A stretch of DNA of 48,153 bases from Candidatus Neomarinimicrobiota bacterium (GTDB lineage: Bacteria > Fidelibacterota > Fidelibacteria > Fidelibacterales > Fidelibacteraceae). Below the pieces are notes generated by a model, which had not been told where the DNA came from, ran no database searches, and saw nothing but the letters and a program-made list of their open reading frames with translations. A program made the position numbers and the translations under genes. The stretch lies in assembly GCA_021157965.1 (NCBI GenBank), contig JAGGVO010000052.1, forward strand, positions 1-48,153, in the 5' to 3' direction. This document shows positions 31,584-48,153 of the stretch, piece after piece (the stretch's first letter is position 1; each line of letters opens with the position of its first letter).

Positions 31584-31595
31584 CGATGATACTCC

Positions 31596-32294
31596 TTATA
31601 CATTTTCCTGTAAAGTTTGATTTTGATTGTCAGAAAGTTGTTGCTCTGCCCCTGTATCCGGATAGCGGTAACGTGGAAGTTTTTCCAGTATTTTGGTCAT
31701 AATAATGGCTACTGTCGTGGAAATACCTGTCGCCAGAATCACCGGCGCAATAATTTCCGAAGCATTGTTGGAATTAGCTGCTGCCCGTATGCCGATGATA
31801 GTTGCCGGAATCAGGGTGACACTCGATGTACTCATGGCCATCAGCATACACATGGCATTGGAAGCCGTGTCTTTAATCTTATTCAGCGTCTGCAATTCCT
31901 GCATAGCCTTAAGCCCTAACGGTGTGGCTGAATTGCCAAGACCGAGAACACTGGCTGCAATAGCCATAACAATGGCACCCATAGCCGGATGATCCGGAGG
32001 AACTTCCGGAAACAGACGAATCATCACTGGTTTGACAACCCTGGCAATAATTTTTATTAAACCGGATTTTTCCGCAATTTTCATCAATCCAAGCCATAAG
32101 GACATGATCCCTACCAGACCGATAGCGAGAGTGACTGCAAATTTTACGGAATCAAAAACACCGGAGGTCAAATTGGCAAGGGGTTCCATCGTCGGATTCC
32201 ATATAATCGACCCGTTGGCAAAATCTATTAAACAATCTACTGATGCGATCGTTACACCTATAACTATCATGGCCAGCCAAATGACATTAATCAA
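31596..32294 (-). CDS. spmA: SpmA-like Gate-domain membrane protein
   Basis: 232 residues, about five membrane helices, partner of SpmB. Motifs: GIMSLWLGLMKIAEKSG, MGAIVMAIAASVLGLGNSATPLG (cited in parts: MGAIVMAIAASV, LGLGNSATPLG) and MSTSSVTLIPATIIGIR. There is no ATG near the family start. The TTG at 32294 lies six bases after AGGAGG, whereas the TTG at 32300 touches that site, so 32294 is chosen. The tail after ~residue 205 is polar and Gln-rich (EQQLSDNQNQTLQENV) and probably cytoplasmic. Confidence 0.88.
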   Translation of the reverse strand: MINVIWLAMIVIGVTIASVDCLIDFANGSIIWNPTMEPLANLTSGVFDSVKFAVTLAIGLVGIMSLWLGLMKIAEKSGLIKIIARVVKPVMIRLFPEVPPDHPAMGAIVMAIAASVLGLGNSATPLGLKAMQELQTLNKIKDTASNAMCMLMAMSTSSVTLIPATIIGIRAAANSNNASEIIAPVILATGISTTVAIIMTKILEKLPRYRYPDTGAEQQLSDNQNQTLQENV

Positions 32295-32300
32295 GGTCAA

Positions 32301-32706
32301 CCTCCTTCTGAAAACAGTTTAAGTTTAAGTTGATTGTAATTCGGCATAATATAAAAATAAATGCTCCGATTATCTTCCATTATTCTCCCCGAATCAGGGG
32401 TTATCCAAGTCTTTCTGCCGGAAAAATGTAGTGTTTTTGTAGTAGTGACATCCCGTCATTTTTTTTTTAAAATCTTTAAAGCAAAACAATTAAAGGCCTT
32501 ATGCATCAATACCCAAAAACAAACAACTTCATTCGCTTATCTCCTTTTGATTTACACCGTGTTTTTCCTTTTAGTTAATCATTTTAGTCAAAGGAAGTTT
32601 TCCTTTCCAGATGGAAGCCCCGGAAACGGGGCTTTCTTCATACAGAAAAAAATATTCATAATTGTTTTGACAAATGTCCGGATGCTTTTTGTGATTCAGG
32701 ATTCTT
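32301..32706. other. 406-base gene-free gap with two hairpins
   Basis: No convincing gene on either strand. An open plus-strand frame (32361-32882) overlaps pyrK, is full of Phe/Ile runs and shows no family. Two perfect stems stand side by side: AAAGGAA/TTCCTTT with a three-base loop (32590-32606) and AAGCCCCG/CGGGGCTT with a GAAA loop (32615-32634; extendable to 32613-32636). They lie 70 to 117 bases after the pyrK stop on the minus strand. Neither has a clear T-run on that strand. On the plus strand the second stem has a GNRA loop and is followed by TTC. The gap also must hold the spmA promoter. Confidence 0.5.
32615..32634. terminator. Strong GC hairpin after the pyr genes, possible terminator
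   Basis: Perfect eight-base stem AAGCCCCG-GAAA-CGGGGCTT between pyrK and spmA. It may end or protect the long pur-pyr transcript at its 3' end. The lack of a T-run on the minus strand argues against a classical intrinsic terminator there; stabilisation against 3' exonucleases is equally possible. Confidence 0.4.
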
Positions 32707-33495
32707 TCAGTGGGAGGTTCTCCGGCCCGTGGCATCCCGGTGGGGCATGCCCCATTCATTTACTTTCTCTGCTTCCAGCCGTGTTAATACGGGTCCTTCC
32801 TTACATAACCGGATTCCGGATCCATCCACAACACACTGACCACAAATACCGATCCCGCATTTCATATACCGTTCAAAACTGATTTCGTAATCAAGTCCGG
32901 CCTGTGTCGCAAGGTCCATCACTTTCACAAGCATGGCTTCAGGTCCTGAAGAATAAATAAAAGACAAGCGGCTTTCCAGAATTTTATCCTGCATGTAATC
33001 TGTTACCAGTCCTTTATATCCCAGTGATCCGTCATCGGTCACAAAGGTTGTGGGAGCCCACTCGGAAAAATCGTTTTGAAAAGGGATATCCTGTGCACAC
33101 CGCCCCCCCAAAAGTACTTCAAAATGAAAGCCCAGTGTACGGAGCTGCCGTGCCAGATAACGCAGAGGAACAATTCCCATCCCGCCGCCAATCAGCAGGG
33201 CGTGTTGATGATGACTAAATCCTTTACCAAAAGGTCCCCGAAGACCCAGCAAATCACCGCGGCGGACATTCATCAATTTCCGGGTAAAAGGCCCTACCGC
33301 CTTAACGGTTATCTCCATAATCCCCTGAAAGACATCGGAAACAGAAAAAGGCTTCTCGTCCACACCGGGAAGCCATACGTTGAAAAAACGGCCGGATTGA
33401 ATATCCGGCTCCGGTTGTTTGAAGTAAAAACTCTTCATGACAGGGGAGTGACTTATGATATTCAGCACCGGATATGTTTTCATCTGATCACTCAT
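32707..33495 (-). CDS. pyrK: Dihydroorotate dehydrogenase electron-transfer subunit PyrK
   Basis: 262 residues. It carries electrons from PyrD to NAD+ by FAD and a [2Fe-2S] cluster. FAD-domain motifs: EKPFSVSD, MEITVKAVGPFTRKL, LRGPFGKGF; NAD part LLIGGGMGIVPLRYLA; cluster motif MKCGIGICGQC with a later Cys in IRLCKEGP. GGAGT lies five bases before ATG 33495, which overlaps pyrD by eight bases. It is the last gene of the pur-pyr run. The C-terminal tail after ~245 (MPHRDATGRRTSH) is not conserved. Together with class 1B PyrD it makes the NAD-dependent enzyme usual in anaerobes. Confidence 0.95.
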   Translation of the reverse strand: MSDQMKTYPVLNIISHSPVMKSFYFKQPEPDIQSGRFFNVWLPGVDEKPFSVSDVFQGIMEITVKAVGPFTRKLMNVRRGDLLGLRGPFGKGFSHHQHALLIGGGMGIVPLRYLARQLRTLGFHFEVLLGGRCAQDIPFQNDFSEWAPTTFVTDDGSLGYKGLVTDYMQDKILESRLSFIYSSGPEAMLVKVMDLATQAGLDYEISFERYMKCGIGICGQCVVDGSGIRLCKEGPVLTRLEAEKVNEWGMPHRDATGRRTSH

Positions 33496-34414
33496 GCACT
33501 ACTCCTCTGATCGACTTTAAATCTTTGATGTTTCTTTCCTCTATCCACGTATAAATCCCACGGTTTATCCGACTGAAAATTTCAATATCCCCGTAATAAA
33601 CCGCCGATCCAATACTGACCATACTTGCACCGGCCATAATCATCTGCACCGCCTGATCAGCAGTTCTCACACCTCCTGTCCCTATAACAGGCAGGGCTGT
33701 ATTTCCACAAATTTCATACACAGCTTTCAGGGCCAGGGGAAAAATGGCAGGACCTGAAACACCTCCCACTTTATTGGCCAGAACCGGCTTCATCACACCC
33801 GTATCAATCAGCATACCGGGACCCACTGTATTGATAGCCGTAATGGCATCCGCCCCATTTTCTTCACAGATTCTCGCCATTTTAATCAGAGATGGACAAT
33901 GAATTGTCAGTTTTATACTCACAGGAATTTTACCTGCCGCTTTTTTCACAATCCGGGTAATTTTCTCAACATCCCTCTCGCTGGCAGCAAAGGGAGAACC
34001 AAATTCCGATGAGACATTCGGACACGAAACATTTACTTCAATAAGGTCCGGTTCAGATTCTACAGCCTGCCGGGTCACCTCGCCAAATTCTTCATGGGTC
34101 CTCCCGAAAACCGAGGCAAATATGCCGGACGTACCTGAATGATCCCGGAGTTTTCTGATTTCCTTCACCATCTCGTCTACACCGGGATTTGATAATCCCA
34201 CGGCATTGAGCAGACCGCTGTCATAAGGTAAAACAGCAGGACACGGATGTCCTTTCCGGGGTACCAGTCCGAAGGATTTCGTCGTAACGGCTCCGGCACC
34301 CGCATCCAGAACACGCCTCATGGAATCGGCTGTGAGTCCTAAAACACCGGAGGCCAGAACAAGAGGAGAAGCGTATTCTTTACCGAGAAAAGTTGTTTTC
34401 AGTTGTATATCCAT
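33488..34414 (-). CDS. pyrD: Dihydroorotate dehydrogenase, catalytic subunit (class 1B)
   Basis: 308 residues. It oxidises dihydroorotate to orotate with FMN. The catalytic base is the Cys in IEVNVSCPNVSSEFG, which marks class 1. FMN and substrate parts: SGVLGLTADSMRRVLDAGAG, GLSNPGVDEM, PVSIKLT, AINTVGPGM, and the phosphate loop PVIGTGGVRTADQAVQMIMAG then ASMVSIGSAVYYG. The adjacent pyrK makes it class 1B. ATG 34414 has a poor site (AGGG), perhaps because translation is coupled to pyrI, whose stop lies eight bases before it. A TTG at 34426 would overlap pyrI but has no site either. Confidence 0.95.
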   Translation of the reverse strand: MDIQLKTTFLGKEYASPLVLASGVLGLTADSMRRVLDAGAGAVTTKSFGLVPRKGHPCPAVLPYDSGLLNAVGLSNPGVDEMVKEIRKLRDHSGTSGIFASVFGRTHEEFGEVTRQAVESEPDLIEVNVSCPNVSSEFGSPFAASERDVEKITRIVKKAAGKIPVSIKLTIHCPSLIKMARICEENGADAITAINTVGPGMLIDTGVMKPVLANKVGGVSGPAIFPLALKAVYEICGNTALPVIGTGGVRTADQAVQMIMAGASMVSIGSAVYYGDIEIFSRINRGIYTWIEERNIKDLKSIRGVVHE

Positions 34415-34422
34415 ACCCTGTC

Positions 34423-34893
34423 TCAAATAATGGGAGATAATTCGTGGATGGAAAACTCCCGTTCACAATAAACACAAGTCACCAGATTATTCCTGGGATC
34501 CGTCAGGATAAACCGGGTTTTCAGTCCCGGCTCATTTTGGGTAATACACCCGGGATTCAGACACCTGAGGAGATTCACTATCTCTTTGGGCGGCTGAACG
34601 GAAACCTTTTCGACCACCTCGAAATTTCGAATCCGTTTAATGGTAACGCCGGGAGATACAAGAGAAATATGCTGTATGGTTCGTTCACACAGATCATCTT
34701 TTTTAATTTTCAGCATATCTTTGGCGCCCAGTTTGTTGCTTTGGTAGTTCATCCCAAAAGTAATAGGGACGTTTTTCAATGCCGGATCCCGTTCCAGTAT
34801 TTCCAGGATATGAACTCCATCGCCGGCCGGAATATGATCAATCACAATTCCGCTACGGATTTTGGGAATCATCTGAATTTTTTTGTCACTCAT
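34423..34893 (-). CDS. pyrI: Aspartate carbamoyltransferase regulatory chain
   Basis: 156 residues. The N-terminal allosteric nucleotide-binding domain (~1-100: VIDHIPAGDGVHILEIL, NVPITFGMNYQSNKLGAKDM, cited in part as NYQSNKLGAKDM) is followed by the zinc domain with CLNPGC and CVYC. It binds PyrB trimers and confers feedback control by nucleotides, so UMP synthesis here is probably regulated at the enzyme level as well. ATG 34893 overlaps the pyrB stop (ATGA) with GAGGTG upstream. PyrI is typical of archaea, gammaproteobacteria and some Bacteroidota relatives. Confidence 0.95.
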   Translation of the reverse strand: MSDKKIQMIPKIRSGIVIDHIPAGDGVHILEILERDPALKNVPITFGMNYQSNKLGAKDMLKIKKDDLCERTIQHISLVSPGVTIKRIRNFEVVEKVSVQPPKEIVNLLRCLNPGCITQNEPGLKTRFILTDPRNNLVTCVYCEREFSIHELSPII

Positions 34894-35810
34894 ATTTTCA
34901 CCTCAAAGACATTTAAAAGAATGGCCTGCCGCATGATCAGTCCGTTTTTTACCTGACAAAAATATTCTGCGTGCGGTGTTTCATCCACATCCGGTGCAAT
35001 TTCATTTACACGGGGCAGGGGATGAAGGACCTTGAGTTGTTCAGGGGCATTTTTCAGCATACCGGCGTTCAGGCAAAATGCATCTTTGACCTTTTCATAT
35101 TCAATCTGATCCGGAAACCGTTCCCGCTGGATCCGGGTCATGTAAATAATATCCGCATAGGGGATGGCATCCTCCAGATTCTTCGTTTCCACAAATGTGA
35201 CGGGAAAATCCGTTTTCACCCGTTTCAGATATTCGGGAAGCCGCAGGGATTCAGGCGATACAAGCATAAATTCATTGACCCGGAATTTGATCAGGGCCTG
35301 AAGCAGAGAGTGGACGGTCCGGGAGTATTTCAAATCCCCCACAAAAGCGATACGGAGTCCTTCAATTTTCTTGAAATTTTTAATAATCGTATAGAGATCC
35401 AGCAGGGTTTGTGTAGGATGCTGATTTGTACCGTCTCCGGCATTGATGACGGGCAGATAGCTGATTTGGGCGGCATGACGGGATGTGCCCTCCTTGGGAT
35501 GGCGGATCACAATGACATCCGAGTAGCTTTCCACCGTATGAATCGTATCCGAAAAGGATTCCCCCTTTGAAACGGAGGTGGCGGCCTGTTCGGCAAAACC
35601 AATGACATTCCCTCCAAGCCGGTACATGGCTGCCTCAAAACTCAGGCGGGTCCGGGTGCTGGCTTCAAAAAAGAGGGAAGCCATAATTTTTCCCTGAAGA
35701 AGCTGAAACCTGTCTTTCAGAGAAATCGTTTCGACCCGGGCGGCAGTATCCAGGTAGACCTGAATATCCTCAGCCTTCAGATCATGCATGGATATAAGAT
35801 CACGTTTCAT
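34890..35810 (-). CDS. pyrB: Aspartate carbamoyltransferase catalytic chain
   Basis: 306 residues. It makes carbamoyl-aspartate. The carbamoyl-phosphate loop FFEASTRTRLSFEAA, the Ser/Lys loop VSKGESFSDT, NQHPTQTLLDLYTI, and the aspartate site LHPLPRVNEIAPDVD are intact. It starts at ATG 35810, overlapping pyrF by four bases with GGGGGA just upstream, and overlaps pyrI at its end, the normal order for the two chains of one holoenzyme. Confidence 0.96.
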   Translation of the reverse strand: MKRDLISMHDLKAEDIQVYLDTAARVETISLKDRFQLLQGKIMASLFFEASTRTRLSFEAAMYRLGGNVIGFAEQAATSVSKGESFSDTIHTVESYSDVIVIRHPKEGTSRHAAQISYLPVINAGDGTNQHPTQTLLDLYTIIKNFKKIEGLRIAFVGDLKYSRTVHSLLQALIKFRVNEFMLVSPESLRLPEYLKRVKTDFPVTFVETKNLEDAIPYADIIYMTRIQRERFPDQIEYEKVKDAFCLNAGMLKNAPEQLKVLHPLPRVNEIAPDVDETPHAEYFCQVKNGLIMRQAILLNVFEVKI

Positions 35811-36511
35811 GCGTCCCCCGATGTATTATTAATTTTTTTTGATACTTCATCCAGATAAAGGACCGGATTCTCTGCCTTCAACAGAGATCTGCCGATGATG
35901 AGGTAATGATTCCGGATAAAGGGAAAATCAGCCGGATTACCGCCCTGGCTTCCAAACCCCGGCGAATAAAAAGTGCAACCATCATCCAGCCCGGCTTCTT
36001 TGTAGATTCTTTCCGTTTCAAACGGCTTGGTAAGGGGTATCACAAAATCACGGACATTCTCTTCGAAAGCCAGTCTGTAGATATCTGCAGCTGCCGTGTC
36101 GCGAATGAATCCTCCCTCCGACTCCAGATAAGCCGGATGGGTCATAATACCGCCGACGATCACCTTTAACTCTTCCTCTTTCAAAGCCCCGGCCCAGGCT
36201 TTCAGAGTATCGGGGCCTGCCTGTGGAAAAATGATCACCTCGTCGATTCCGGAAGATTTCATAACATCGGCAAAGAGTTTGCCCGTTGCAGGAATATCCG
36301 TGGCCGCTTTTTGGTGATCATATATCAAGGGCTTGTTCGTATGCTTCCGGATCAGTTTACACACCCGGGGTAAACCGTATGTGAGTCCAAGTGAAAAACC
36401 CAGCTTATACCCATAAATGACAGGATGATCATCCACTGCCCGGATCAGGGTTTCCAGCTTATCCAGATCGGTCAAATCCAGTGCGGGAATGATTTTTATA
36501 TTTTTATCCAT
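35807..36511 (-). CDS. pyrF: Orotidine 5'-phosphate decarboxylase, divergent type
   Basis: 234 residues from ATG 36511 (GGAG seven bases upstream). It should convert OMP to UMP. The TIM-barrel plan is visible: KIIPALDL, YGYKLGFSLG (first Lys, residue 36), the catalytic loop IYDHQKAATDIPATG, GGIMTHPAY, and the phosphate loop SPGFGSQGG. The usual D-x-K-x-x-D loop is here D65-x2-K68-x3-D72, two residues longer. All four charges (Lys36, Asp65, Lys68, Asp72) are kept. This is unlike the classical bacterial type 1 or 2 sequences. It sits exactly at the pyrF place in the run, which supports the function. Confidence 0.85.
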   Translation of the reverse strand: MDKNIKIIPALDLTDLDKLETLIRAVDDHPVIYGYKLGFSLGLTYGLPRVCKLIRKHTNKPLIYDHQKAATDIPATGKLFADVMKSSGIDEVIIFPQAGPDTLKAWAGALKEEELKVIVGGIMTHPAYLESEGGFIRDTAAADIYRLAFEENVRDFVIPLTKPFETERIYKEAGLDDGCTFYSPGFGSQGGNPADFPFIRNHYLIIGRSLLKAENPVLYLDEVSKKINNTSGDA

Positions 36512-37121
36512 TGCTTTCTCCATGATAAAAGGTGTTCAACACGTCCGCCATGGACGGATTCCTGGTTTTCATATACTCAATCAAATCGGGAAGATCAATC
36601 AGAGATTTCAAGGGCACGGGAAATTCAGTGATTTCTCCTTTCCTTCGCCGGTCTGCCGCCACCACAACGCCGGCGACTTTCACGCCAAATGTCCGTTCAA
36701 TCAGTACCATGGCCTCCAGCTTGGTCCCTCCTGTTGTCATCACATCATCTACCATAATCACAGTACTCTCTTTTTCCGGTGTATGTCCCACAAACATCCC
36801 CTTTTCCCCATGAGTTTTCATCTCTTTCCGGTTGTAAAACATGGCCAGGCGCCGGTCAGGATGCTTCATCACCGTAGCCGTTGCCAGGGATATGCCTTTA
36901 TATGGCGGTCCGTATATGTGGGACGCTTCAGGGAAACATTCGGAAATCATTTCGGCAAATGCCTTTCCCGTCAAGTCCAGGGCTTTCGCCGAAGCAATAT
37001 TTCCAAGGTTTAAAAAAAACGGAGACTCCATCCCCGATTTCAACGTGAAGCTTCCGAATTTCAGAACACCTTCCTGTATCAGGCATTCAATAAACTGACA
37101 TTTAGCCGGTGAAAGCACCAA
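36504..37121 (-). CDS. pyrE: Orotate phosphoribosyltransferase
   Basis: 205 residues. It joins orotate to PRPP. The PRPP motif TVIMVDDVMTTGGTK, the pyrophosphate loop HIYGPPYKGISLA, and the FTLKSGMESPFFLNLG substrate region are present. The start is a TTG (37121) or the next codon GTG (37118); AAAGGAG lies five to nine bases upstream and no ATG is available. It overlaps pyrC by 20 bases and pyrF by 8 bases. Confidence 0.95.
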   Translation of the reverse strand: MVLSPAKCQFIECLIQEGVLKFGSFTLKSGMESPFFLNLGNIASAKALDLTGKAFAEMISECFPEASHIYGPPYKGISLATATVMKHPDRRLAMFYNRKEMKTHGEKGMFVGHTPEKESTVIMVDDVMTTGGTKLEAMVLIERTFGVKVAGVVVAADRRRKGEITEFPVPLKSLIDLPDLIEYMKTRNPSMADVLNTFYHGESNG

Positions 37122-38379
37122 TAATCTCCTTTCCTTTATTGCGTGTCACAAAATCCTTATTTAAAAAAACCACCTTCCCCTGAATCAACACGGTATCAAC
37201 GAGATACGTCAGGGGGATGCGTTCATAGGGGTTGTATCCCGCTTTGGTAATCACAGGCTCAGCTCTCTCTCCTTTTTTCAGGACGATCAGATCGGCAACA
37301 GAACCCCGACGGATACCATGATATCCGGCTATTCCATAACATGCGGCGGCGCCTGAAGAGATGAGCCGGGTTATCCGGGACCGGGACAGCAGGTTTTGTT
37401 CTGCCAGTTCCAATATGGCGGGGACGGCCCACTCTATGCCCGGAATGCCTGAGGGAGGATTATCACTCCTTTTTTCGGCAGGTGTATGAGGGGCATGATC
37501 CGTCCCGATAAAATCTACTATACCGTCCCGAATGCCCTGCCGTACAGCATCGCGGTCCGCCACATCCCGTAAAGGAGGATTCACCTGATACCTTGCACCG
37601 TATTGTTGCTCATCCTCCCGGGTAAACCACAGGTAATGAGGCGCCGTTTCACCCCAAACGTCAACACCTTTTGCCTTCATATCCGCCAGCCATTGGACAT
37701 CTTCCAGGGTGGATGCATGGCAGATAACCACCCGGGGGCGTTCTTTTTCCGGTAGAAGCATGAGAACCCGCCGAATGGTTTCCAATGCCGTCCGGATTGC
37801 CTTTCTGGGGCGCCGGAGATGGTGTTGGGATGCACAGGTAAAACAGCTTTCATCTTCAGCATGGATCGTCACCCGCCGGGCTTTCCTAAAAATCGACAAT
37901 AAGACGTCTTTCCGGTTCCAGGCGGAACGGGAGGATGATCTGGCCATAAATATTTTTGCTGAAGCAGCCCTTTCGGGAATGTCCCGCATGTCCGGCGTCG
38001 CCATGAAATGGAGTCCCCAGTTTACCAGGGATTTCTCTTTAAACAGACGCTCTTTTGCTTCAAAGGCTTCCGGCGTATCACAAGGAGGATCGGTATTCGG
38101 CATATCGAAAACAGTCGTCACACCTCCCTTGACAGCTGCCCGCGAACCGTTTTCAATGCCTTCCTTGGCAAGAAAACCCGGTTCACGAAAATGGACATGG
38201 GGATCGATCATTCCGGGCAGGATCAATCCTCCCGCGGCATCCAGCACATCCATCTCCGGACAAAGTTCAATCCGTCCGATTGTACGGATTTTTCCCTTAT
38301 CAATCAGCAAATCTTCCCGCTCAATCCGGCCGTCGGGATGTAAGACTGATCCGTTTTTCAGCAGGAGTGTCTTCATCAT
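37102..38379 (-). CDS. pyrC: Dihydroorotase (class I)
   Basis: 425 residues. It closes carbamoyl-aspartate to dihydroorotate. Amidohydrolase ligands: DPHVHFREPG (H61, H63), VTIHAEDE, VICHAS, and DFIGTDHAPHT (Asp). The mid-region KIFMARSSSRSAWNRKDVLL differs from the common KIFMGSSTG form. Start: ATG 38379 with AGGA nine bases and AAGGGA just upstream; ATG 38376 is next. The frame stays open to 38538 but lies in purF. The gene follows purF by four bases, so the purine part passes into the pyrimidine part here. Confidence 0.93.
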   Translation of the reverse strand: MMKTLLLKNGSVLHPDGRIEREDLLIDKGKIRTIGRIELCPEMDVLDAAGGLILPGMIDPHVHFREPGFLAKEGIENGSRAAVKGGVTTVFDMPNTDPPCDTPEAFEAKERLFKEKSLVNWGLHFMATPDMRDIPERAASAKIFMARSSSRSAWNRKDVLLSIFRKARRVTIHAEDESCFTCASQHHLRRPRKAIRTALETIRRVLMLLPEKERPRVVICHASTLEDVQWLADMKAKGVDVWGETAPHYLWFTREDEQQYGARYQVNPPLRDVADRDAVRQGIRDGIVDFIGTDHAPHTPAEKRSDNPPSGIPGIEWAVPAILELAEQNLLSRSRITRLISSGAAACYGIAGYHGIRRGSVADLIVLKKGERAEPVITKAGYNPYERIPLTYLVDTVLIQGKVVFLNKDFVTRNKGKEIIGAFTG

Positions 38380-38383
38380 TCCC

Positions 38384-39820
38384 TTAATTCCTGTCCGATC
38401 CGATTTTTTCCTGTTCGATGTGATCCAGGATTTCTTTTGTGATGCCCGTCGGGTAATGACCGGAAAAACACGCATCGCATATAGGCAAATCGTGGTAAAG
38501 TTCCTGCAAATCTTCCAGCTTTTGGTACACCACGGCATCCGCCCCGATCACCCGGGCGATTTCCTCGTTGTTATTGTAATGGGAAGCCACCATTTCTTTC
38601 CGGACGGACATATCAATGCCGTAAATACAGGGGAATTTGATCGGCGGCGAGGCCGAAACAAAGAAAACCTTCGCCGCGCCATATTCCCGTAACAGGTGAA
38701 TGATATGACGTGATGTGGTCCCCCGGACGATGGAGTCATCCACCACTGCGACTTTCCGGCCTTTGATGATATCTTTGATGGGATTCAGCTTCTGTTTCAC
38801 CACATTTTCCCGCTCTTTTTGAGTGGGCGTAATAAAACTCCGTCCCACAAAACGGTTCTTCGCCAAACCACGCCGATAGGGTACATGGACCTCTTCCGCC
38901 AGTCCGGATGCAAAAAAGTAGGCCGAATTGGGAACATCAATAATAATATCGGGATCGATACCTGATTCCTGAAAGGTTTTTGCCAGCTTTTTGCCCATTT
39001 TCACCCGCTCACTGGCCACCAGGCGTTTATGAAATACCGAATCCTCCCGGGCAAAATAAATATATTCAAATACGCAGAATGCCTGTTTTTCCTGTTTGAG
39101 AATTTTGGAATGGACATTCATCTCCTTATCAATAAAAACCGCTTCGCCCGGTTGTAAATCCCGCATCATTTCATATTCCAGAAAATCAAAAACAGTCGTT
39201 TCAGATGCAAAGGCATACACCACCCCCTGGTCTGTGAGTTTTCGTCCCATCACCAGCGGCCGGATACCGTAAGGATCCGTAAAGGCCAGAAGCCCTTTGT
39301 TGGCAATAATCGTCAGAGCAGAATAAGCCCCTTTGACCAAATCCTGGACTTCTGATACCACATCGAAGAGATCATTGACCTCTAAATGTTTCAGATCTTT
39401 CTTTTCAAGCTGGGCGGCAAATGTGTAAAGAATCAGGGCTACATCATTGGACGTATCGAGAAGGCGCATATTGTCCTCATAGAGCCGCCGTCTCAGCTCC
39501 TGAAAATTGATCACATTCCCATTGTGAACCATTGCCAGTCCGTAGGGGTAATTCACGGCAATAGGCTGGGCGTCCACCTCCAGAGTGGATCCCATGGTTG
39601 CATAACGCACGTGTCCCAAACCACATTTCCCCCGAAAGGCTTCCGGATCGAAATTCCTGAAAACCCGGCTAACGTGTCCCTGTCCCTTTTTCATCCGGAA
39701 ACGACTGTTCAACGTCACGATACCGGCCGCATCCTGTCCGCGGTGCTGAATCACCGTCAATCCGTTAATCAGCTCTGCAGAAATATCCTCATGACCTGTA
39801 ATTCCAATAATACCACACAT
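38384..39820 (-). CDS. purF: Amidophosphoribosyltransferase
   Basis: 478 residues. It commits PRPP to purine synthesis using glutamine. The protein starts MCGIIGITG, so the nucleophile is Cys2 with no propeptide. Glutamine-domain parts: QHRGQDAAGI, GLGHVRYAT, MVHNGNVINF. PRPP motif VAVVDDSIVRGTTS. Late Cys residues in PICDACFSGHYP may take part in a [4Fe-4S] cluster as in Bacillus-type enzymes. The start codon directly follows the purN stop; AGGAG lies 12 bases upstream. Confidence 0.96.
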   Translation of the reverse strand: MCGIIGITGHEDISAELINGLTVIQHRGQDAAGIVTLNSRFRMKKGQGHVSRVFRNFDPEAFRGKCGLGHVRYATMGSTLEVDAQPIAVNYPYGLAMVHNGNVINFQELRRRLYEDNMRLLDTSNDVALILYTFAAQLEKKDLKHLEVNDLFDVVSEVQDLVKGAYSALTIIANKGLLAFTDPYGIRPLVMGRKLTDQGVVYAFASETTVFDFLEYEMMRDLQPGEAVFIDKEMNVHSKILKQEKQAFCVFEYIYFAREDSVFHKRLVASERVKMGKKLAKTFQESGIDPDIIIDVPNSAYFFASGLAEEVHVPYRRGLAKNRFVGRSFITPTQKERENVVKQKLNPIKDIIKGRKVAVVDDSIVRGTTSRHIIHLLREYGAAKVFFVSASPPIKFPCIYGIDMSVRKEMVASHYNNNEEIARVIGADAVVYQKLEDLQELYHDLPICDACFSGHYPTGITKEILDHIEQEKIGSDRN

Positions 39821-40420
39821 TTATGATTGTATCTCCTGTATATGAATTTTTCCTGTCAGCACATCCCGGATTACTTCGCTGTAAAAAGCTCGCTCAACAG
39901 CAAGCCCTCGCTTTTCCACCTCTTCCAGAGTCTCTGCACCGCGCAGATCCACCGTTCTTTGGGCCAGTACGGGTCCGGTATCCACACCGTCATCGATAAG
40001 ATGCACGGTGATTTTCGTCTCTTTGAGTCCTTTTTCAAAAGCCCATTCATACCCTCCGATGCCCTGAAACCGTGCCGTATCGGCAGGATGGATATTCAAA
40101 ATCCGGTTTCGGTATCGATGGATAAAAAAAGGCGTCAAAATCCGCATAAAACCTGCCAGAATGATATAATCGGGTTTGTATGGTTCCAGGCTTTCAATCA
40201 GTTCCACTTCGAATTCCCGGCGTTTTTTCCCTTTTGAGGACACGCAGACTGCCGGTATGCCGGCTTTCCGGGCTGTTTCAAGTCCTGTTGCCGAGTCCTT
40301 GTTTGAAATCACAAGCACCACCTCACACAGTCCTTTCAGGATTCCTTCCCGACACTCCTTCAGGATTGCCGCCATGTTGGATCCCCTTCCGCTGATGAGA
40401 ATCGCCAGCCGGGCCGTCAT
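39821..40420 (-). CDS. purN: Phosphoribosylglycinamide formyltransferase (10-formyl-THF)
   Basis: 199 residues. It formylates GAR. The ribose-phosphate loop ISGRGSNMAAIL, the catalytic Asn-His in ILNIHPADT, and the Asp in HLIDDGVDTGPVLAQ are intact. The usual N-I-H-P-S-L-L-P stretch is altered to NIHPADTARFQG. ATG 40420 overlaps purD (ATGA) with GGGGAA upstream; the stop abuts purF. Confidence 0.94.
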   Translation of the reverse strand: MTARLAILISGRGSNMAAILKECREGILKGLCEVVLVISNKDSATGLETARKAGIPAVCVSSKGKKRREFEVELIESLEPYKPDYIILAGFMRILTPFFIHRYRNRILNIHPADTARFQGIGGYEWAFEKGLKETKITVHLIDDGVDTGPVLAQRTVDLRGAETLEEVEKRGLAVERAFYSEVIRDVLTGKIHIQEIQS

Positions 40421-41667
40421 ACATTCCCCTCCCGCCGACCGATGTCACGGCGCAAATATTTATCCTGAAAATGGATTTTATCCACTTCCGGATAGACCTT
40501 TTCAATGGCTTCCTGCAGATTTTTACCCCGTGCCACCACATTCAATACCCGGCCGCCGTTTGTGAGCAGCCTGCCTCCCTCCTGCCGGGTTCCCGCATGA
40601 AAAAGGAGGGTTCCGGCAGACAATGTGTCCAACCCGGTGATTTCATACCCTTTCTGATAAGTGCCGGGATATCCCCCCGAAGCCAGGACCACATCAATAA
40701 AAGTATCCCGGTAAAATTGAGGATGTACAGTATCCAGCCTGCCTGATAAAGCCCCATCGATCAGTTCGGCCAGGGAGGATTTTAATGCGGGCAAAATGAC
40801 CTCCGTTTCAGGATCGCCAAAACGAACGTTGTATTCCAACACCTTCGGTCCTTCAGGTGTCATCATGATGCCAAAATAGATGACTCCCCTGTACTCGAAG
40901 CCTTCTTCGCGGATTCCCTGCATGGTGGGTTCTATGATATTCTTCCGGACTGCTTCAGCCATGGCCGGAGTATACCATGGGACGGGACAATAAGCTCCCA
41001 TGCCGCCGGTATTGGGACCCTTATCCCCTTCGAAAGCCTGTTTGTGATCCTGAGAAGATAAGAACAGGCGGATGGTTTGACCATCAGTCATACCTATGAC
41101 GGACATCTCCCGCCCGTTTAACCGTTCCTCCAGCAGATATGTGGCATTCTTTCCATATTTCTTTTTCAAAGCGGCTATAGCTTCCAGGGCATCTGATTCC
41201 GAGTTACACACCGTCACACCCTTTCCGGCTGCCAGTCCGTCATATTTCACTACAACCTGTCCCTTCAAAGACCGGATAAAATCCCGGGTTTCTTTTTCCG
41301 CTGAAGCATAAAGGCAGCGGGCAGTGGCCACTCCGTATTTTTTCATGAATTGTTTGGAATAAATCTTTGAAGCTTCCAGTTGTGCCGCCGCCCCGGACGG
41401 ACCAAAAACACGGGTGAACGATCCCTGAAAAGCATCATGAATTCCCTGAGCCAGAGGATCTTCCGGACCAACAACCAGCCAATCAATTCTTTCGGATTCA
41501 CAAAATGTCTTAAGGGCTCTAAAATCCATGGGATCAAGGAGACGATTGTTCGGAGTCCCCCCGTTTCCGGGTATTACGAAGATATTCTCCTCTCCCACAT
41601 CGAGTCCCAGTTTCCAGGCCAAGGCGTGTTCCCGTCCGCCGGACCCGAGAATAGCGATTTTTGTCAT
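40417..41667 (-). CDS. purD: Phosphoribosylamine-glycine ligase
   Basis: 416 residues, ATP-grasp enzyme making GAR. Start MTKIAILGSGGREHALAWKL is canonical. ATP-grasp parts: VVKYDGLAAGKGVTVC, YLLEERLNGREMSVIG, and the metal-binding EYNVRFGDPETEVILP. QDHKQAFEGDKGPNTGGMGA is the family signature. It overlaps purB before it (ATGA) and purN after it (ATGA). GGGAAG precedes ATG 41667. Confidence 0.96.
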   Translation of the reverse strand: MTKIAILGSGGREHALAWKLGLDVGEENIFVIPGNGGTPNNRLLDPMDFRALKTFCESERIDWLVVGPEDPLAQGIHDAFQGSFTRVFGPSGAAAQLEASKIYSKQFMKKYGVATARCLYASAEKETRDFIRSLKGQVVVKYDGLAAGKGVTVCNSESDALEAIAALKKKYGKNATYLLEERLNGREMSVIGMTDGQTIRLFLSSQDHKQAFEGDKGPNTGGMGAYCPVPWYTPAMAEAVRKNIIEPTMQGIREEGFEYRGVIYFGIMMTPEGPKVLEYNVRFGDPETEVILPALKSSLAELIDGALSGRLDTVHPQFYRDTFIDVVLASGGYPGTYQKGYEITGLDTLSAGTLLFHAGTRQEGGRLLTNGGRVLNVVARGKNLQEAIEKVYPEVDKIHFQDKYLRRDIGRREGNV

Positions 41668-43031
41668 GATTCTTCCCTAAGGTATTTCCGGACATCCGCC
41701 GTCATGGAAAGGGCCAGTTGTGGAGCCAGCCCGATATAGGTTTCCGGTCGTAAAGTTTTCAGTTCACGGATCAGTACAGGATCCACATTCAACGTATCCA
41801 GGGCCTGATGCAGAGATTCCAGGGTAATCAATTTCCCTCGTGTCAAATTTTTCATCATCCCGTAAGGATCCGGAACACCGGATTTTCTTAAAATCGTCTG
41901 TATGGGTTCAGCCAGAAGTTCGGGATGTTTTGAAACCTCATCCAGGACGTTCCGGACATTCACACGGATTTTCGAAAGCCCCTGTAAGGTTTCCGAGACC
42001 GCCAGAAAGGCATGTCCCAAAGCTACACCCATATTCCGTGCGACGGTGCTGTCCGACAAATCCCTTTGAAGCCGGGATGTTGTAAGATTCTCGGACAAGG
42101 CAGACAGAAGGGCGTTGGATATTTTCAGATTGCCTTCACTGTTTTCAAAATTAATGGGGTTTACCTTGTGGGGCATGGTTGAGGATCCCACCTCTCCTTC
42201 TTTAAGCGAAAGAAGGAGATACCCCTGCATCAGGTAAAGCCAGGTATCCTGATCCAGATCCCGGATAATCTGATTGATCCGGCGGGTGATATCGAAAAAT
42301 TCAGCCCAGGTATCATGATCCTCAATCTGGGTTGTAAGAGGATTGATCTCCAGACCGTAACGTTCCATAAAGCGCCGGGAAAAGGCCGGCCAGTCTGCAT
42401 TCGGACAGGCAGCTCTGAAAGCGGAATAATTCCCGGTCGCCCCGTTCAATTTGCCCCGGAAGGTAAGATTTTTCAGCTTTTTATACTGGGTAAACAGGCG
42501 GTTCAGAAAAACGGCTGTTTCTTTGCCGTAGGTCGTGGGTGATGCCATCTGTCCGTGGGTTCGTGCAGGGAAAACCGTATCTGCCCAGGTCTCCGATAGA
42601 TCACAGAGTGTGAAAAGCAGATTTCTGAGCTGAGGTAACTGGCATGTATCCCGGTAGTTTTTCAGAAGAAAAGTCCAGGAGAGATTATTTACATCTTCCG
42701 ATGTCAACCCAAAATGAATCCGGTTGGGTTGCCGGAGTCCTGCATTTTTTTGCAGAAAGATTTCACACGCTTTGACATCGTGATTGATCTCTTTTTCAAT
42801 GGTTTTTACTTCTTTATATTCCTTTTCGCCGAAATCTGTTTCAATCTTCTCAAGCCGCCGAATCTCTTCCGGGGTGAGAAGTGAAAAACAACGCATCTCG
42901 TCCAAAGCCCGGATAAAGCGGATTTCCGTAATGACCCGCATTCGCATGAGGGCAAATTCGGAGAAATAGTCCCGGAGGACATCCAGCCTGTCTGCATACC
43001 GTCCGTCCAGGGGAGAAATGGCATTAAACAT
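41664..43031 (-). CDS. purB: Adenylosuccinate lyase
   Basis: 455 residues. It splits SAICAR (to AICAR) and adenylosuccinate (to AMP). The superfamily signature VGSSTMPHKVNPINFENSEG (cited in part: SSTMPHKVNPINFEN) and the N-terminal MFNAISPLDGRYADRL fit the long PurB type of Escherichia coli (~456 residues). The catalytic His region is THGQMASPTTYGKE. Start ATG 43031 has AGGAG seven bases upstream; the frame is open to 43055, inside the purCE tail. It overlaps purCE by eight bases. Confidence 0.96.
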   Translation of the reverse strand: MFNAISPLDGRYADRLDVLRDYFSEFALMRMRVITEIRFIRALDEMRCFSLLTPEEIRRLEKIETDFGEKEYKEVKTIEKEINHDVKACEIFLQKNAGLRQPNRIHFGLTSEDVNNLSWTFLLKNYRDTCQLPQLRNLLFTLCDLSETWADTVFPARTHGQMASPTTYGKETAVFLNRLFTQYKKLKNLTFRGKLNGATGNYSAFRAACPNADWPAFSRRFMERYGLEINPLTTQIEDHDTWAEFFDITRRINQIIRDLDQDTWLYLMQGYLLLSLKEGEVGSSTMPHKVNPINFENSEGNLKISNALLSALSENLTTSRLQRDLSDSTVARNMGVALGHAFLAVSETLQGLSKIRVNVRNVLDEVSKHPELLAEPIQTILRKSGVPDPYGMMKNLTRGKLITLESLHQALDTLNVDPVLIRELKTLRPETYIGLAPQLALSMTADVRKYLREES

Positions 43032-44418
43032 CCTGTTGCTCCTGTAATTGGGCATTCGCCTGATCCAATTTATCTTTGACCTTTTGAATTTTTTTCCGGA
43101 ACCGGCTTTTCAGCGAGGGGATATTCAAACAAAGGACAGCTGCATCGGCAGCATTTTTCGGATCCACCACAGTCAGGGCCGGTGTATCGGAGGGCATCAT
43201 GAGGGAAGAATTGATATTTACCAGAAAGTCTGTCTTGTCGCTAAAGGGAGGGCAATTAATAACCGGGACCGGAAGGTTGGCGGAAAGTGCGCCGCCAAGG
43301 CCGTTGGAACGCCCTGCCACGGCAATGATTGACACCGGTTCATGGCATTGGATGACATCCTCCATGATAACCGGAATTTTTTCCCCGTTTTTATGGGCCG
43401 ACACCACACGCATTTTAACGGTAATGTCATAGTTTTTGATGCGCTCCGCCATTTTTTCCGCGTGGGGAACATCGGACGGGGATCCCATGACAATCAGCAC
43501 ACAGCCTTCTTTCAAAAACCCTGCATCCTTAAGATTTTTCAGAACCCTGTCTGCCGGGTCTGCATCAGGATAGTTCAGCGGGGCGCCTGTGATCCGTTCA
43601 TACAACTCCAGGTACCGCCGGCTCGTTTCCGCCACGATCTCTTCCGGCAGTGTTTCAGGGTATTCTCCCCCCTGTTTATGCTCCATCAGATAATTCCGGA
43701 CAAATTCCTTATCCAGTTGTTCAACGGATTCAGGATTGGATTCGTAAGCTTCTTTCAGCCAGAACCGGGAGGAATCGGGCGTATGAATTTCATCAATCAG
43801 GACCAACTCGCCTTCAATGAGACCAAATTCATATTTAGTATCCACCAGGATAATACCCCGCTCCAGAAGCATGGCACTCCCTTTTTCAAAAAGGCGGAGG
43901 GAAACAGAGCACATCTTTTCATAGATCTCCCGGGAAGTCCATCCTTCTTTCACAATTTCTTCGGCACTGATGGGGCGGTCCGAAGCTTCTTTTGTCGTGG
44001 GTGTGACAATAGGTTTCGGAAAGGGAGCATTTTGAGTCAGTCCGTCAGGGAGAGACACGCCGGAGAGAGTCCGTTCGCCTTTCTGATATTTCCGCCAGGC
44101 CGAGCCGGTCAGGTAGGCCCGGATAATCATTTCCAGCCGGATGGGTTTGGCTTCACGGACCAGACTGATGGCAGGATCCACTATTCTGACAAAGTGGTTG
44201 GGACAGATATCCCGGGTTTTGTCAAACCACCAGGCTGCCAGGGAATTGAGAACCGCTCCTTTTGCCGGGACCGGTGTTTTCAAGACCCTGTCGAAGCTGG
44301 ATATTCGGTCTGTCGCCAGAATCAGGCGATGCCCGGCATCCGCTCTGAAACTTTCACGGACCTTCCCGCTGTGGAGTTTTTTTAATTGCGGGGAATCAAA
44401 ACGGGGCAGACAATCCAT
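43024..44418 (-). CDS. purCE: Bifunctional SAICAR synthetase - AIR carboxylase (PurC-PurE fusion)
   Basis: 464 residues. Residues ~1-285 are PurC of the ~300-residue (yeast Ade1-like) form: LHSGKVRESF, ILATDRISSFDRVL, IRAYLTGSAWRKY, LVDTKYEFGL and LIDEIHTPDSSRFW. Residues ~305-436 are PurE: VLIVMGSPSDVPHAEKM, RVVSAHKNGEKIP, VAGRSNGLGGALSANLPVPV, and SSLMMPSDTPALTVV. The SAHK, AGRSNGLG and SSL-PS motifs match class II PurE, as in animal PAICS, which uses CO2 directly, rather than class I PurE, which needs PurK. No purK is in the run. A Lys/Gln-rich helix ends the protein. AGGAGG stands seven bases before ATG 44418. Confidence 0.93.
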   Translation of the reverse strand: MDCLPRFDSPQLKKLHSGKVRESFRADAGHRLILATDRISSFDRVLKTPVPAKGAVLNSLAAWWFDKTRDICPNHFVRIVDPAISLVREAKPIRLEMIIRAYLTGSAWRKYQKGERTLSGVSLPDGLTQNAPFPKPIVTPTTKEASDRPISAEEIVKEGWTSREIYEKMCSVSLRLFEKGSAMLLERGIILVDTKYEFGLIEGELVLIDEIHTPDSSRFWLKEAYESNPESVEQLDKEFVRNYLMEHKQGGEYPETLPEEIVAETSRRYLELYERITGAPLNYPDADPADRVLKNLKDAGFLKEGCVLIVMGSPSDVPHAEKMAERIKNYDITVKMRVVSAHKNGEKIPVIMEDVIQCHEPVSIIAVAGRSNGLGGALSANLPVPVINCPPFSDKTDFLVNINSSLMMPSDTPALTVVDPKNAADAAVLCLNIPSLKSRFRKKIQKVKDKLDQANAQLQEQQDV

Positions 44419-44434
44419 GCGTATTCCTCCTGTA

Positions 44435-46051
44435 TTAATGCTTAAAATGACGCATTCCGGTAAAAATGAGTGTTATATCCAGTTCATCCGCCTTCTCAAT
44501 GACGGCCTTATCCCGGATAGATCCGCCGGGCTGTACGATGGTCCGTATCCCTTCGGCATGGCTCAACTCCACATTATCAGGGAAGGGGAAAAATGCATCG
44601 GAAAAGAGGACGGCCTTACCCATCTCCGTGCGGATATACTCCTCCAGTCCTTCAGGATTACCGGTATATTCGTGTTTCAGATTTTCCCGGCAACGTGCCA
44701 GGGTAAGAAGTGTGGAATTCACCCGGTTCGGCTGGCCGCATCCCATGCCCAGGAGCTGAAGATCACCATCTGCACATTTCCGGACAACACAAATGGCATT
44801 GGATTTCAACTGTCGAACGGCTGTGAGTCCAAAACGCATCAGATTTTCATCCACTTCAGCCTTTCTTCGGCTCACATAATCCACCTTATCCAGCAATTCA
44901 CGATCTGCATCCTGATAAAGAAGGGCATTATAAATAAATTTCATATCATGCACAGGTTGAAGTCTGGCCGGATCAAAAACAACAATACGCAGATTTTTAT
45001 GCTGTTTCAAATATTCCAGGGCATCGTCTTCAAAACCAGGAGCCGCCAGTATTTCCACAAATTTTCGCCGGCTCTTGTCGCTTGCATCAAGGTTCAGGAA
45101 TTCGGCTGTTTCGAGTGTTACCCTTTTGTTGAAAGCAATCACGGATCCAAAGGCGGATACCGGATCTCCGTCCCAGGCTTTTTTAAAAATTTTTCGCTGA
45201 TTTTTCCCCTCACTGAGTCCGCAGGGATTGGCATGTTTAATGATGGCACACCCTGTCCCTTTCAGATCCCGAACCGCTTCCAGGGCGCCGTAGAGGTCGA
45301 ACATATTGTTGTATGAAACGGCTTTTCCATGAAGGACTTCCATATCGCACAGGGAATCAAGGGCATTCCGCAGGCGATAAAGGGTTCCTTTCTGGTGGCT
45401 GTTTTCCCCATAACGAAGGATCTGCGGATGATCAAAGGCAAAGCGCAAGGTCGGTTCTCCAGCCTGTTCGTCCATGGTTACGGCAATCAGGCTGTCGTAA
45501 TCGGCCGTATGATTAAAGGCTTTCCGCATGAGTTTGAAACGGGTTTCCAAATCCGTATTTCCCCCGTTTTCCGTCATGTTTTCCATCACCATCCCGTAAT
45601 CTCCGGGATCCACAACAGTTGTAACCCATTTGTAATTTTTTGCGGCGGCCCGAATCATGGCAGGTCCTCCGATATCAATATTTTCAATGAGCCGGGACAG
45701 ATCCGCGCCCTCATTTTTAACCCTTTCAAATGGATAAAGATTGCAAACAACCATATCGATAGGGAGAATTCCCAACTTTTCTGCTTCTTCCCGGTCCTTT
45801 TCACGGTCAAAAAGAAGAGCTGATTCAATCTGAAAAGAGATGGTTTTCATCCGGCCGCCGAAAGCTTCAGGATTTCCTGTAACCGACTGAATATCCGTCA
45901 CCGAAACACCGGCCTCTTTCAACACACGACGTGTCCCGCCGGTGGAAATAATTTCACAACCCGCTTCCTGAAGATACTTGCCCAACTCCGCCAACCCGGT
46001 TTTGTCCGACACGCTGATTAAAACACGTTTAATTGGTCCGTAGCCTTTCAT
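44435..46051 (-). CDS. purH: Bifunctional AICAR transformylase - IMP cyclohydrolase
   Basis: 538 residues. The N-terminal IMP cyclohydrolase domain (~1-200): VLISVSDKTGLAELGKYL, ISTGGTRRVL, VCNLYPFERV, NIDIGGPAMIRAAAKN. The C-terminal AICAR formyltransferase domain has RYGENSHQKG, CAIIKHANPCGLSEG (catalytic Lys-His), GSVIAFNKRV, and FFPFPDNVELSHAEGI. It carries out the last two steps to IMP. GGAGG lies 12 bases before ATG 46051. The gap to purCE is 16 bases. Confidence 0.96.
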   Translation of the reverse strand: MKGYGPIKRVLISVSDKTGLAELGKYLQEAGCEIISTGGTRRVLKEAGVSVTDIQSVTGNPEAFGGRMKTISFQIESALLFDREKDREEAEKLGILPIDMVVCNLYPFERVKNEGADLSRLIENIDIGGPAMIRAAAKNYKWVTTVVDPGDYGMVMENMTENGGNTDLETRFKLMRKAFNHTADYDSLIAVTMDEQAGEPTLRFAFDHPQILRYGENSHQKGTLYRLRNALDSLCDMEVLHGKAVSYNNMFDLYGALEAVRDLKGTGCAIIKHANPCGLSEGKNQRKIFKKAWDGDPVSAFGSVIAFNKRVTLETAEFLNLDASDKSRRKFVEILAAPGFEDDALEYLKQHKNLRIVVFDPARLQPVHDMKFIYNALLYQDADRELLDKVDYVSRRKAEVDENLMRFGLTAVRQLKSNAICVVRKCADGDLQLLGMGCGQPNRVNSTLLTLARCRENLKHEYTGNPEGLEEYIRTEMGKAVLFSDAFFPFPDNVELSHAEGIRTIVQPGGSIRDKAVIEKADELDITLIFTGMRHFKH

Positions 46052-46075: not shown

Positions 46076-46897
46076 TTATCCCAACGCCTTTACGATATTC
46101 ACGAAAATTTGCAATCCTTCTCCCTTTTCATCTTTTAGATGGCCTGTTTTATTTCGACGGTTCCAATCGGGATGGTTATAGGCAGTGAGATAGGCTTCCG
46201 GATGTGGCATGAGTCCGAAAACCTGTCCCGACGGATCACAGAGTCCGGCACAATTCAATTCAGACCCGTTGGGATTGAAGGGATATCGGTCTGTAATATG
46301 TTCTTCTCTGTCTATATAAGCCAGTACGTTCAACTTTCGGTCCACCACCGCCTGACGGATATCATCATTTTTAAATATCAATTTGCCTTCACCGTGCCGG
46401 ACCGGCAGGTCCATAACATCAATTCCATGTAAAAAAGGTGTGGGATGATCCGCCAGAACTTTGCAGGAAATCCAACGGTCCTCAAATTTTCCCGAGTCAT
46501 TAAATGTCAGGGTGGCTTCCTGTTCCCGGTTCCCACCGGTATTGGGCAGGAGTCCCATTTTCACCAGGGCCTGAAAACCATTGCACACACCGATAATATA
46601 TTTCCCATCCTGCAGAAAACGTTGAATTTCCTCCATAAAGGGAGTGCCGGAAGCAATGGGGCGGACCTTCAACTGGTTAGCCAGGACTTTTGCAGAGCCC
46701 AAATCATCCCCAAAAGAAAACCCACCGGGGAGGTTCAGCAAATCATAATCATGAATTGACACATCCCCGTTAAAAATCCGGCTCAGGTGGACAATATCCG
46801 CATGGGCACCTGCAAGACGGCAGGCCGCGGCCATTTCCTCCTCACAATTAATTCCCGAGCCGGTTATCACAAGAGCCCGGATTTTTCCGTTCTTCAT
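46076..46897 (-). CDS. purQ: FGAM synthase glutaminase subunit PurQ
   Basis: 273 residues, longer than the ~225-residue PurQ of Bacillus. Class I amidotransferase triad: Cys in IIGVCNGFQALVKMG, and His-Glu in GLMPHPEAYL. NLPGGFSFGDDLGSAKVLANQ (cited in part: GGFSFGDDLGSAK) is the PurQ signature. It feeds ammonia to PurL. I choose ATG 46897, seven bases after the purL stop, where the protein fold begins (KIRALVITGSGINCEEE); the upstream open frame overlaps purL. The binding site is weak, suggesting coupling to purL. Confidence 0.93.
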   Translation of the reverse strand: MKNGKIRALVITGSGINCEEEMAAACRLAGAHADIVHLSRIFNGDVSIHDYDLLNLPGGFSFGDDLGSAKVLANQLKVRPIASGTPFMEEIQRFLQDGKYIIGVCNGFQALVKMGLLPNTGGNREQEATLTFNDSGKFEDRWISCKVLADHPTPFLHGIDVMDLPVRHGEGKLIFKNDDIRQAVVDRKLNVLAYIDREEHITDRYPFNPNGSELNCAGLCDPSGQVFGLMPHPEAYLTAYNHPDWNRRNKTGHLKDEKGEGLQIFVNIVKALG

Positions 46898-46904
46898 ATT
46901 TATT

Positions 46905-48153
46905 TCAGAACACAAGACCATTTCTCCATCTTTCAAGCATTTCATCTTTAGATACTTCGAGGATTTTTTCTCCTTTGAAGGATACTATCAGAACCGGTTC
47001 TTCCGTCACAGCTCCCAGGAAACGGGCATAGGTACCCATGAGACTTTCAAAGGTTGTTTGATTTTTCATCGGGACGGAGACCAGAAAGCGGGAGTGGGAT
47101 TCGGAAAAGAGTTCGGGAATGAGGGGCAGATCGCCATATCCTACATCCACGGCACCGCCATAAAGCCCTCCGATGACACATTCTGCCAGAGCAACAGCCA
47201 ATCCCCCGTCCGATAAATCATGGGAAGACGCCAAAAATCCTTCCCTGTGGGCCATGGCCATCAGCCGGTAGAGATTCAGGGCATGAGATTTCCGGACCTT
47301 GGGCACATGAGCCCCAAGATAACCCAGAAGACGATAAAATTCCGAGCCGCCCAATTCATCCCATGTTTTTCCCACCAGGTAGATCGCATCCCCGGGACGC
47401 TTAAATTCGCTGGTTGTAACAGTCCGGATATCATCGATTTTCGCCGCCATGGAATAGAGAACCGTGGGTGGGACGGAAATTTTCACATTCCCTTTACGGA
47501 AATCATTTTTCATGCTGTCTTTGCCGGAAGTCATGGGGATATTGAAAGTGGTGGCCATATCGAACAGAGCCTGATTCATGCGGACAAGCTGGGCCAGTTT
47601 ATATTTTCCATCGGGATTCGTTTCGGGGTCATAGACCGAATCGGGGACACAGAAATTATCGTTTACAGACCAGAAGGGACTGTTCACATCTTTCGGATCC
47701 GGCAAACGACCGCCGATGGAAATAATCTGCCGGACAGCTTCATCAAAGGCGCCGGCTGATGCTTCATAGGCATCGATATCCCCGAATTTTGGCATAATCC
47801 CGTTAGACACGGCAATACCTTCCCAGGAATCGAAACCAAGGCGTATCACTCCGGCATCCTGAGGGGCATTTCCCGTTACGCCCATGAGAGGTTTGACCAC
47901 TGTCCGTCCCTTAACCTCATGATCATAGCGGCGGATAATACTTTCCCGGGAGCAGATATTCAGACTCCCCAAAAGGGAAAGAAGGGTTTCTTTGATATCC
48001 GGTTGTTCATTCAGTTCCGGTTCATGAACCAAGGGTTTTTGCCATACTGCCTCAAGCTGTTTCCGGGGCACGCCATTATGGAGAAAATCCAGATCCAAAA
48101 GGGCCGCGATTTGGTCCTTATAAAAAAGTTTTAGATTGCCCGAATTGGTAAAC
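46905..48153 (-). CDS. purL: FGAM synthase PurL, C-terminal part (runs off window edge)
   Basis: The last ~415 codons of PurL; the frame is open to the right edge, so the start is outside. It ligates ammonia to FGAR using ATP. Visible motifs: GNLKLFYKDQIAALLDLDFL, GVTGNAPQDAGVIRL, TSGKDSMKNDFRKGNVKISVPP (cited in part: TSGKDSMKNDF, KISVPPTVL) and SSHDLSDGGLAVALAECV. TSGKDSM and the ISVPPT string are like large, single-chain PurL, yet there is no fused amidotransferase: the gene stops and a separate purQ follows after seven bases. It is the most upstream gene seen of the pur-pyr run; the promoter is beyond the window. Confidence 0.94.
   Translation of the reverse strand, partial: FTNSGNLKLFYKDQIAALLDLDFLHNGVPRKQLEAVWQKPLVHEPELNEQPDIKETLLSLLGSLNICSRESIIRRYDHEVKGRTVVKPLMGVTGNAPQDAGVIRLGFDSWEGIAVSNGIMPKFGDIDAYEASAGAFDEAVRQIISIGGRLPDPKDVNSPFWSVNDNFCVPDSVYDPETNPDGKYKLAQLVRMNQALFDMATTFNIPMTSGKDSMKNDFRKGNVKISVPPTVLYSMAAKIDDIRTVTTSEFKRPGDAIYLVGKTWDELGGSEFYRLLGYLGAHVPKVRKSHALNLYRLMAMAHREGFLASSHDLSDGGLAVALAECVIGGLYGGAVDVGYGDLPLIPELFSESHSRFLVSVPMKNQTTFESLMGTYARFLGAVTEEPVLIVSFKGEKILEVSKDEMLERWRNGLVF

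Follow-up and report, generated by a model that had tools for sequence, protein, structure and literature searches.

A single gene of a Neomarinimicrobiota bacterium encodes SAICAR synthetase (PurC) followed by a class II PurE (AIR carboxylase) in one chain, which is the domain order of animal PAICS. The gene is real and well formed, and its sequence together with a structure model makes a working bifunctional PAICS-like enzyme the most likely product. Such fusions are common in several bacterial phyla, and the present one is no local oddity. In a broader sense we favor, with moderate confidence, the view that bacteria have a PAICS of their own. It would be one ancient fusion of an ADE1-type PurC and a CO2-using PurE that converged on the domain order of animals, with another kind of PurC and perhaps another assembly, and that spread through many phyla without purK.

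The Fusion Gene and Its Locus

The window, that is, the whole stretch of DNA analyzed (48,153 nucleotides), is an entire contig of a 2.31-Mb draft genome (61 contigs, 96% complete). The fusion gene lies at 43024..44418 on the minus strand, where the open reading frame and family matches give 464 amino acids plus a stop codon, starting with ATG. An AGGAGG ribosome-binding-like site (44426..44431, minus strand) is located 7 bases upstream of this ATG. From the frame and a profile search, the single intact product is divided into PurC (residues ~1–278), a 27-residue linker, and class II PurE (residues 306–464). On the minus strand, the PurC domain proper (residues 14–278; PF01259, long ADE1-like type) corresponds to 43585..44379, the linker (residues 279–305, with a predicted helix at 288–298) to 43504..43584, and the PurE domain to 43027..43503. 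Pfam SAICAR_synt covers residues 14–250 with 222 bits and AIRC covers 307–451 with 110 bits, both in the same frame. Among NCBIfam models, those for PurC score best on the 464-residue protein. The top one, PRK12607, gives 350 bits and stays just below its cut-off of 371, and PRK13961 passes its own (258 vs. 251 bits). TIGR01162, the NCBIfam purE model for N5-CAIR mutase, gives 97.5 bits, below its curated cut-off of 149.6, and the fusion does not belong to that family.

The fusion gene is part of a purine operon on the minus strand. The order of the genes is a purL-like frame close to the contig end (46905..48098, named from its sequence and place), purQ (46076..46945), purH directly upstream of the fusion gene (44435..46051), purC-purE, purB overlapping the end of the fusion gene (41664..43055), purD (40417..41667), purN (39821..40420), and purF (38384..39820). 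From purQ onward, the neighbors are named by NCBIfam matches, together with the frame list in the case of purB. A purM gene is found on another contig of the genome, nearly full length with 210.6 bits, below the cut-off of 236. Pyrimidine genes follow directly after the purine genes on the minus strand (31047–38538): pyrC, a phosphoribosyltransferase gene, pyrF, pyrB, and pyrI, as well as dihydroorotate dehydrogenase with its Fe-S partner. Two Gate-domain genes are part of this stretch. At the other end of the window there is a frame of 3117 residues (953–10306, minus strand).

The PurC Half and the Predicted Structure

The PurC half is a SAICAR synthetase of the long type. Its sequence scores 177 bits with yeast ADE1 and 162 with Mycobacterium abscessus PurC, against only 26 with the PurC part of insect PAICS. 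In the AlphaFold2 model of the monomer, made with 49 fusions as input alignment (mean pLDDT 92.5, pTM 0.87), the PurC domain matches yeast SAICAR synthase 2cnq over 274 residues (Z 33.9, rmsd 1.8 Å) and M. abscessus PurC 3r9r (Z 31.5). Unlike the fusion, neither of these enzymes has a PurE attached; yeast is counted among the users of the PurK/PurE route in PMC9376930. Fifteen of the 16 PurC positions chosen for comparison are invariant over the 49 fusions.

The PurC tree and the PurE tree discussed below have 67 rows each, composed of every second one of the 53 fusions from outside the family of the window plus chosen rows. In the PurC tree, insect PAICS and the short PurCs of the E. coli-like type are separated from the fusions by a branch of length 4.28 (support 100). 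When insect PAICS, itself a very long branch, and 41 bacterial fusions were forced into one clade, this arrangement was rejected for PurC (AU test, p 0.00593). The distance of the insect PurC and this rejection indicate that the bacterial and animal fusions were built from different PurC subfamilies, so that common descent does not hold for both halves. Judged from these sequences, convergence of the bacterial fusion with animal PAICS is well supported. A sequence-only reading of the locus had proposed that the gene follows the animal domain order, that its PurC is of the longer form known from yeast, and that it may have arisen independently of the animal fusion; the open reading frame bears out the first proposal, the bit scores the second, and the PurC tree with the AU test the third.

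The linker is 26–28 residues long in 48 of the 49 fusions, and its helix 288–298 is ordered in the model. Each domain can be superposed singly on animal PAICS (human 2h31/6yb8, insect 4ja0), but superposition of the two together fails, with an rmsd of 21–24 Å over 335–370 residues aligned by VIA-align. Thus, the domains are placed differently from those of animal PAICS in the monomer model, and a common quaternary design is unsupported. The protein would be catalytically active, its PurE halves would form an octameric core, and the fusion may channel CAIR.

Distribution and Phylogenetic History

To describe the spread of the fusion, genomes were scanned with an alignment of class II PurE, which gave at least 588 pattern matches, of which 556 were confirmed and the best 80 kept. 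Among these best 80 of at least 556 loci, 63 are fusions (57 outside and 6 within Neomarinimicrobiota, a phylum now named Fidelibacterota according to PMC11652737); in 14 the purE has a purC gene of its own as neighbor, and in 3 the stretch retrieved contains no purC. Four of the fusions are truncated at a contig end (L041, L046, L083, and L087), and L046 keeps only 33 residues of PurC. The phylum labels of the fusions among the best 80 are mainly Calditrichota, Cloacimonadota, and Bacteroidota, and further records are labeled Chlorobiota, Armatimonadota, Riflebacteria, Oligoflexia, Spirochaetaceae, Eisenbacteria, Wallbacteria, and others; since the records are mostly metagenome bins, single labels may be wrong. 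Inside the phylum (245 genomes), the fusion was seen only in the family of the window, in 12 of its 19 genomes. The PurE halves of two loci labeled Candidatus Neomarinimicrobiota or Marinimicrobia (L033 and L034) are 79% identical to that of the window. A cultured relative, Fidelibacter multiformis IA91, is described in PMC11652737 with a genome of 2.79 Mbp and growth under N2/CO2. The remaining seven family genomes gave no PurE match (G003, G010, G012, G013, G015, G016, and G018); they are 66–90% complete, and either this incompleteness or loss of purine synthesis may be the reason.

A joined PurC and PurE tree was made from 89 rows, leaving out the four contig-edge fragments. Fusions account for 65 rows, of which 12 are from the family of the window and 53 from elsewhere; the others are 16 loci of the phylum with split genes and 8 loci of the Peregrinibacteria type. 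All 65 fusions fall on one side of a branch with support 97, and those of the family of the window group with Calditrichota fusions (support 91). The split purC and purE genes of the phylum are across a branch of support 100 from the fusions, and forcing the phylum into one clade was rejected (AU test, p 0.000271). In the rooted tree of PurE only, the fusions L110 and L111 stand beside unfused genes, and this placement allows more than one fusion event. The one-sided position of all 65 fusions and the near-constant linker, which L110 and L111 share, favor a single event in bacteria. On this evidence, a single ancient event in bacteria, whose product was passed on by transfer, descent, or both, is probable.

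How the family of the window came to possess it is a separate matter. One possibility, which we give somewhat less than even weight, is that Calditrichota and the phylum shared an ancestor that already had the fusion, and that the family of the window kept it, without any transfer into this family, while split or class I genes took its place in the other families. The grouping with Calditrichota is in line with this history, and a Calditrichota species is named as the closest cultivated relative by 16S of a member of the phylum in PMC11652737. Nothing decisive stands against it; the rejection of one clade for the phylum fits transfer into the family of the window or into the other families equally. 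This possibility concerns history and is compatible with a PAICS-like function of the gene.

Class II PurE and the CO2 Route

The assignment of the PurE half to class II is based on motifs, nearest structures, and phylogeny, which all agree. Four motifs lie on the minus strand: MGSPSD of the AIR site (residues 311–316, 43471..43488), SAHK with the class II Lys and the catalytic His (residues 340–343, 43390..43401; invariant in all 49 fusions), the class II loop AGRSNGLG (residues 368–375, 43294..43317), and SSLMMPS (residues 404–410, 43189..43209). The 464-residue frame with SAHK, AGRSNGLG, and SSL-PS motifs that had been read as a class II enzyme is present as claimed, at its place on the minus strand. 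Of 22 chosen PurE positions, 15 are invariant across the 49 fusions, including G369, S371, and N372. When aligned with the human AIR-carboxylase site model, using the active-site list available from PMC9376930, the PurE half is identical at 17 of 18 residues, MGSPSD being among the motifs on that list, and the exception is Thr275, replaced by Pro in the bacterial fusion. Among solved structures, insect PAICS, Treponema denticola class II PurE, and human PAICS come closest, with class I (E. coli-type) enzymes well behind. T. denticola PurE (3rg8, 3rgg) is likewise bacterial and has the class II fold and motifs, and the PurE domain of the model matches 3rg8_B over 154 residues (Z 21.3, 2.4 Å); it differs in being a stand-alone protein with no PurC attached. 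In the PurE tree, rooted with class I-like rows and M. jannaschii PurE, every fusion is within the class II part together with the T. denticola and insect enzymes, whose rows are long branches, and class I is split off with support 99.

Under the proposed mechanism, the C-terminal class II PurE would carboxylate AIR to CAIR with dissolved CO2 and without ATP, the N-terminal ADE1-type PurC would join CAIR and aspartate with ATP to give SAICAR, and PurB, encoded next, would split SAICAR. The use of CO2 is suggested by the sequence class of the PurE half, and any benefit at high CO2, as proposed in the sequence-only reading, would be conjectural. The fusion is the sole gene with PF00731 in the genome and hence its only PurE. 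A search with TIGR01161 found no purK over the cut-off in the genome of the window; with 61 contigs and a completeness of 96%, a purK may have been overlooked. Two weak matches are purD and a 453-residue frame of biotin-carboxylase size on contig C35. No β-carbonic anhydrase was found in the genome with PF00484, the single family searched, which was positive in 9 of 14 control genomes; this has little bearing on the supply of CO2.

The sequence-only reading had named a purK gene together with a class I-like PurE as the finding that would overturn it, and neither was observed. That the fusion marks a PurK bypass specific to the present bacterium is, however, unsupported or overstated. purK is over the cut-off in only one of the 245 genomes of the phylum, by a cut-off that could miss a divergent purK; 11 of the 14 control genomes scored above it. 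A PurE match is present in 189 of the 245: the fusion in 12, an unfused class II PurE with a strong match (E below 1e-30) in 95, and a weaker match only in 82, a few of which are fragments. Of 18 places fetched from among the weaker matches, L153 was set aside because of wrong coordinates, and the other 17 all have SAHR and a class I-like loop. These class I-like PurEs of other families of the phylum (L143–L152 and L154–L160) mostly have AGMAAHL or AGKAAHL, and no purK was recognized in their genomes except that of L147 (G221), where the purK adjoins a canonical purE with SAHRTP and AGGAAHLPGM. Because purK is absent nearly throughout the phylum, also from genomes with class I-like PurE, its lack is a poor discriminator for CO2 use, and we discarded it as proof of a bypass. 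It is compatible with a CO2 route through the fusion and is not special evidence for one. In a sample of 98 genomes of Cloacimonadota, the phylum of one fusion record (L044 of G252), the full fusion is found in 26 and a fragment in 2 more; purK is over the cut-off in 2 and just below it in a third (306 vs. 318 bits), and none of these three has the fusion. Among 50 fusion-bearing genomes outside Neomarinimicrobiota, representing 50 of the 57 fusion loci there, purK was found in one, a Verrucomicrobiota bin (G250, locus L040), which may be wrongly binned, as its fusion groups with Calditrichota.

The relatives that have a class I-like PurE and no purK must either obtain N5-CAIR in another way or use CO2 with this PurE; both ideas are discussed for archaea in PMC3261824. 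These relatives also lend something to the idea that the PurE half of the fusion acts as an N5-CAIR mutase of the class I type, fed by non-enzymatic N5-CAIR or by an unrecognized substitute of PurK. However, the fusion has SAHK and AGRSNGLG where class I enzymes have SAHR and AG.AAHL, and its structural and phylogenetic neighbors are class II enzymes, which makes a mutase improbable; carboxylation of AIR with CO2 is the preferred reading.

Formation of the Fusion

Adjacent purC and class II purE genes of other Neomarinimicrobiota and of Peregrinibacteria resemble the fusion in gene order, PurC type, and PurE class, but they are two genes and lie across branches of support 97–100 from the fusions. 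In several other families of the phylum, the end of purC overlaps the start of class II purE by 4 bases. A different arrangement is seen at L030, L031, and L032, where the order is reversed and a class II purE overlaps a following odd PurC-like gene of 342–364 residues (63–68 bits). The fusion would have arisen once, apart from animals, by read-through of neighboring purC and class II purE genes, its precursor being of the adjacent or 4-base-overlapping type that Peregrinibacteria and further families of the phylum still have, and the fused gene would then have reached many lineages via transfer and/or descent.

Since purC directly precedes class II purE in many other families of the phylum, commonly with the 4-base overlap, one may ask whether the fusion was formed afresh within the phylum from its own gene pair. 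This is very unlikely. The joined tree, which places the split genes apart, and the AU test speak against it, and the split purE read beside long-type purC is shorter (128–138 amino acids) and has AGRSNALSG instead of AGRSNGLGG. That two genes were joined by an assembly error or a frameshift, for which only the 61-contig draft state of the genome could be adduced, has a negligible chance of being true, because the fusion recurs in the family, where in G004, of the same genus as the window (loci L010 and L117), it is on a single contig of 2,788,509 bases, and among the best 80 loci, which excludes chance as well.

Implications

Direct carboxylation of AIR is described as nearly confined to eukaryotes in PMC4177761, and EC 4.1.1.21 is given without any bacterial enzyme in PMC10912719. 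PMC3261824 calls fused PurCE common in eukaryotes, and mentions Archaeoglobus with a class II-like PurE and no PurK as well as the patchy occurrence of purK in archaea. In PMC13328217, separate bacterial PurK and PurE are contrasted with a single bifunctional enzyme in humans. The literature searched, which does not cover most subscription journals, yielded no description of PurC-PurE fusions in bacteria; such fusions may well be annotated already in sequence databases.

The bacterial fusion bears on the use of PurE and PurK as general bacterium-specific drug targets. The lack of purK throughout the phylum, including its members with class I-like PurE, points to a gap in the understanding of the step from AIR to CAIR in many bacteria. 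A widespread bacterial fusion with a PurC type of its own offers a natural repetition of animal PAICS, which can serve to compare structures and to ask why the two steps get joined. If the bacterial PAICS is indeed convergent, it would become testable whether fusion of this pair has been favored repeatedly since CAIR is best passed on at once.
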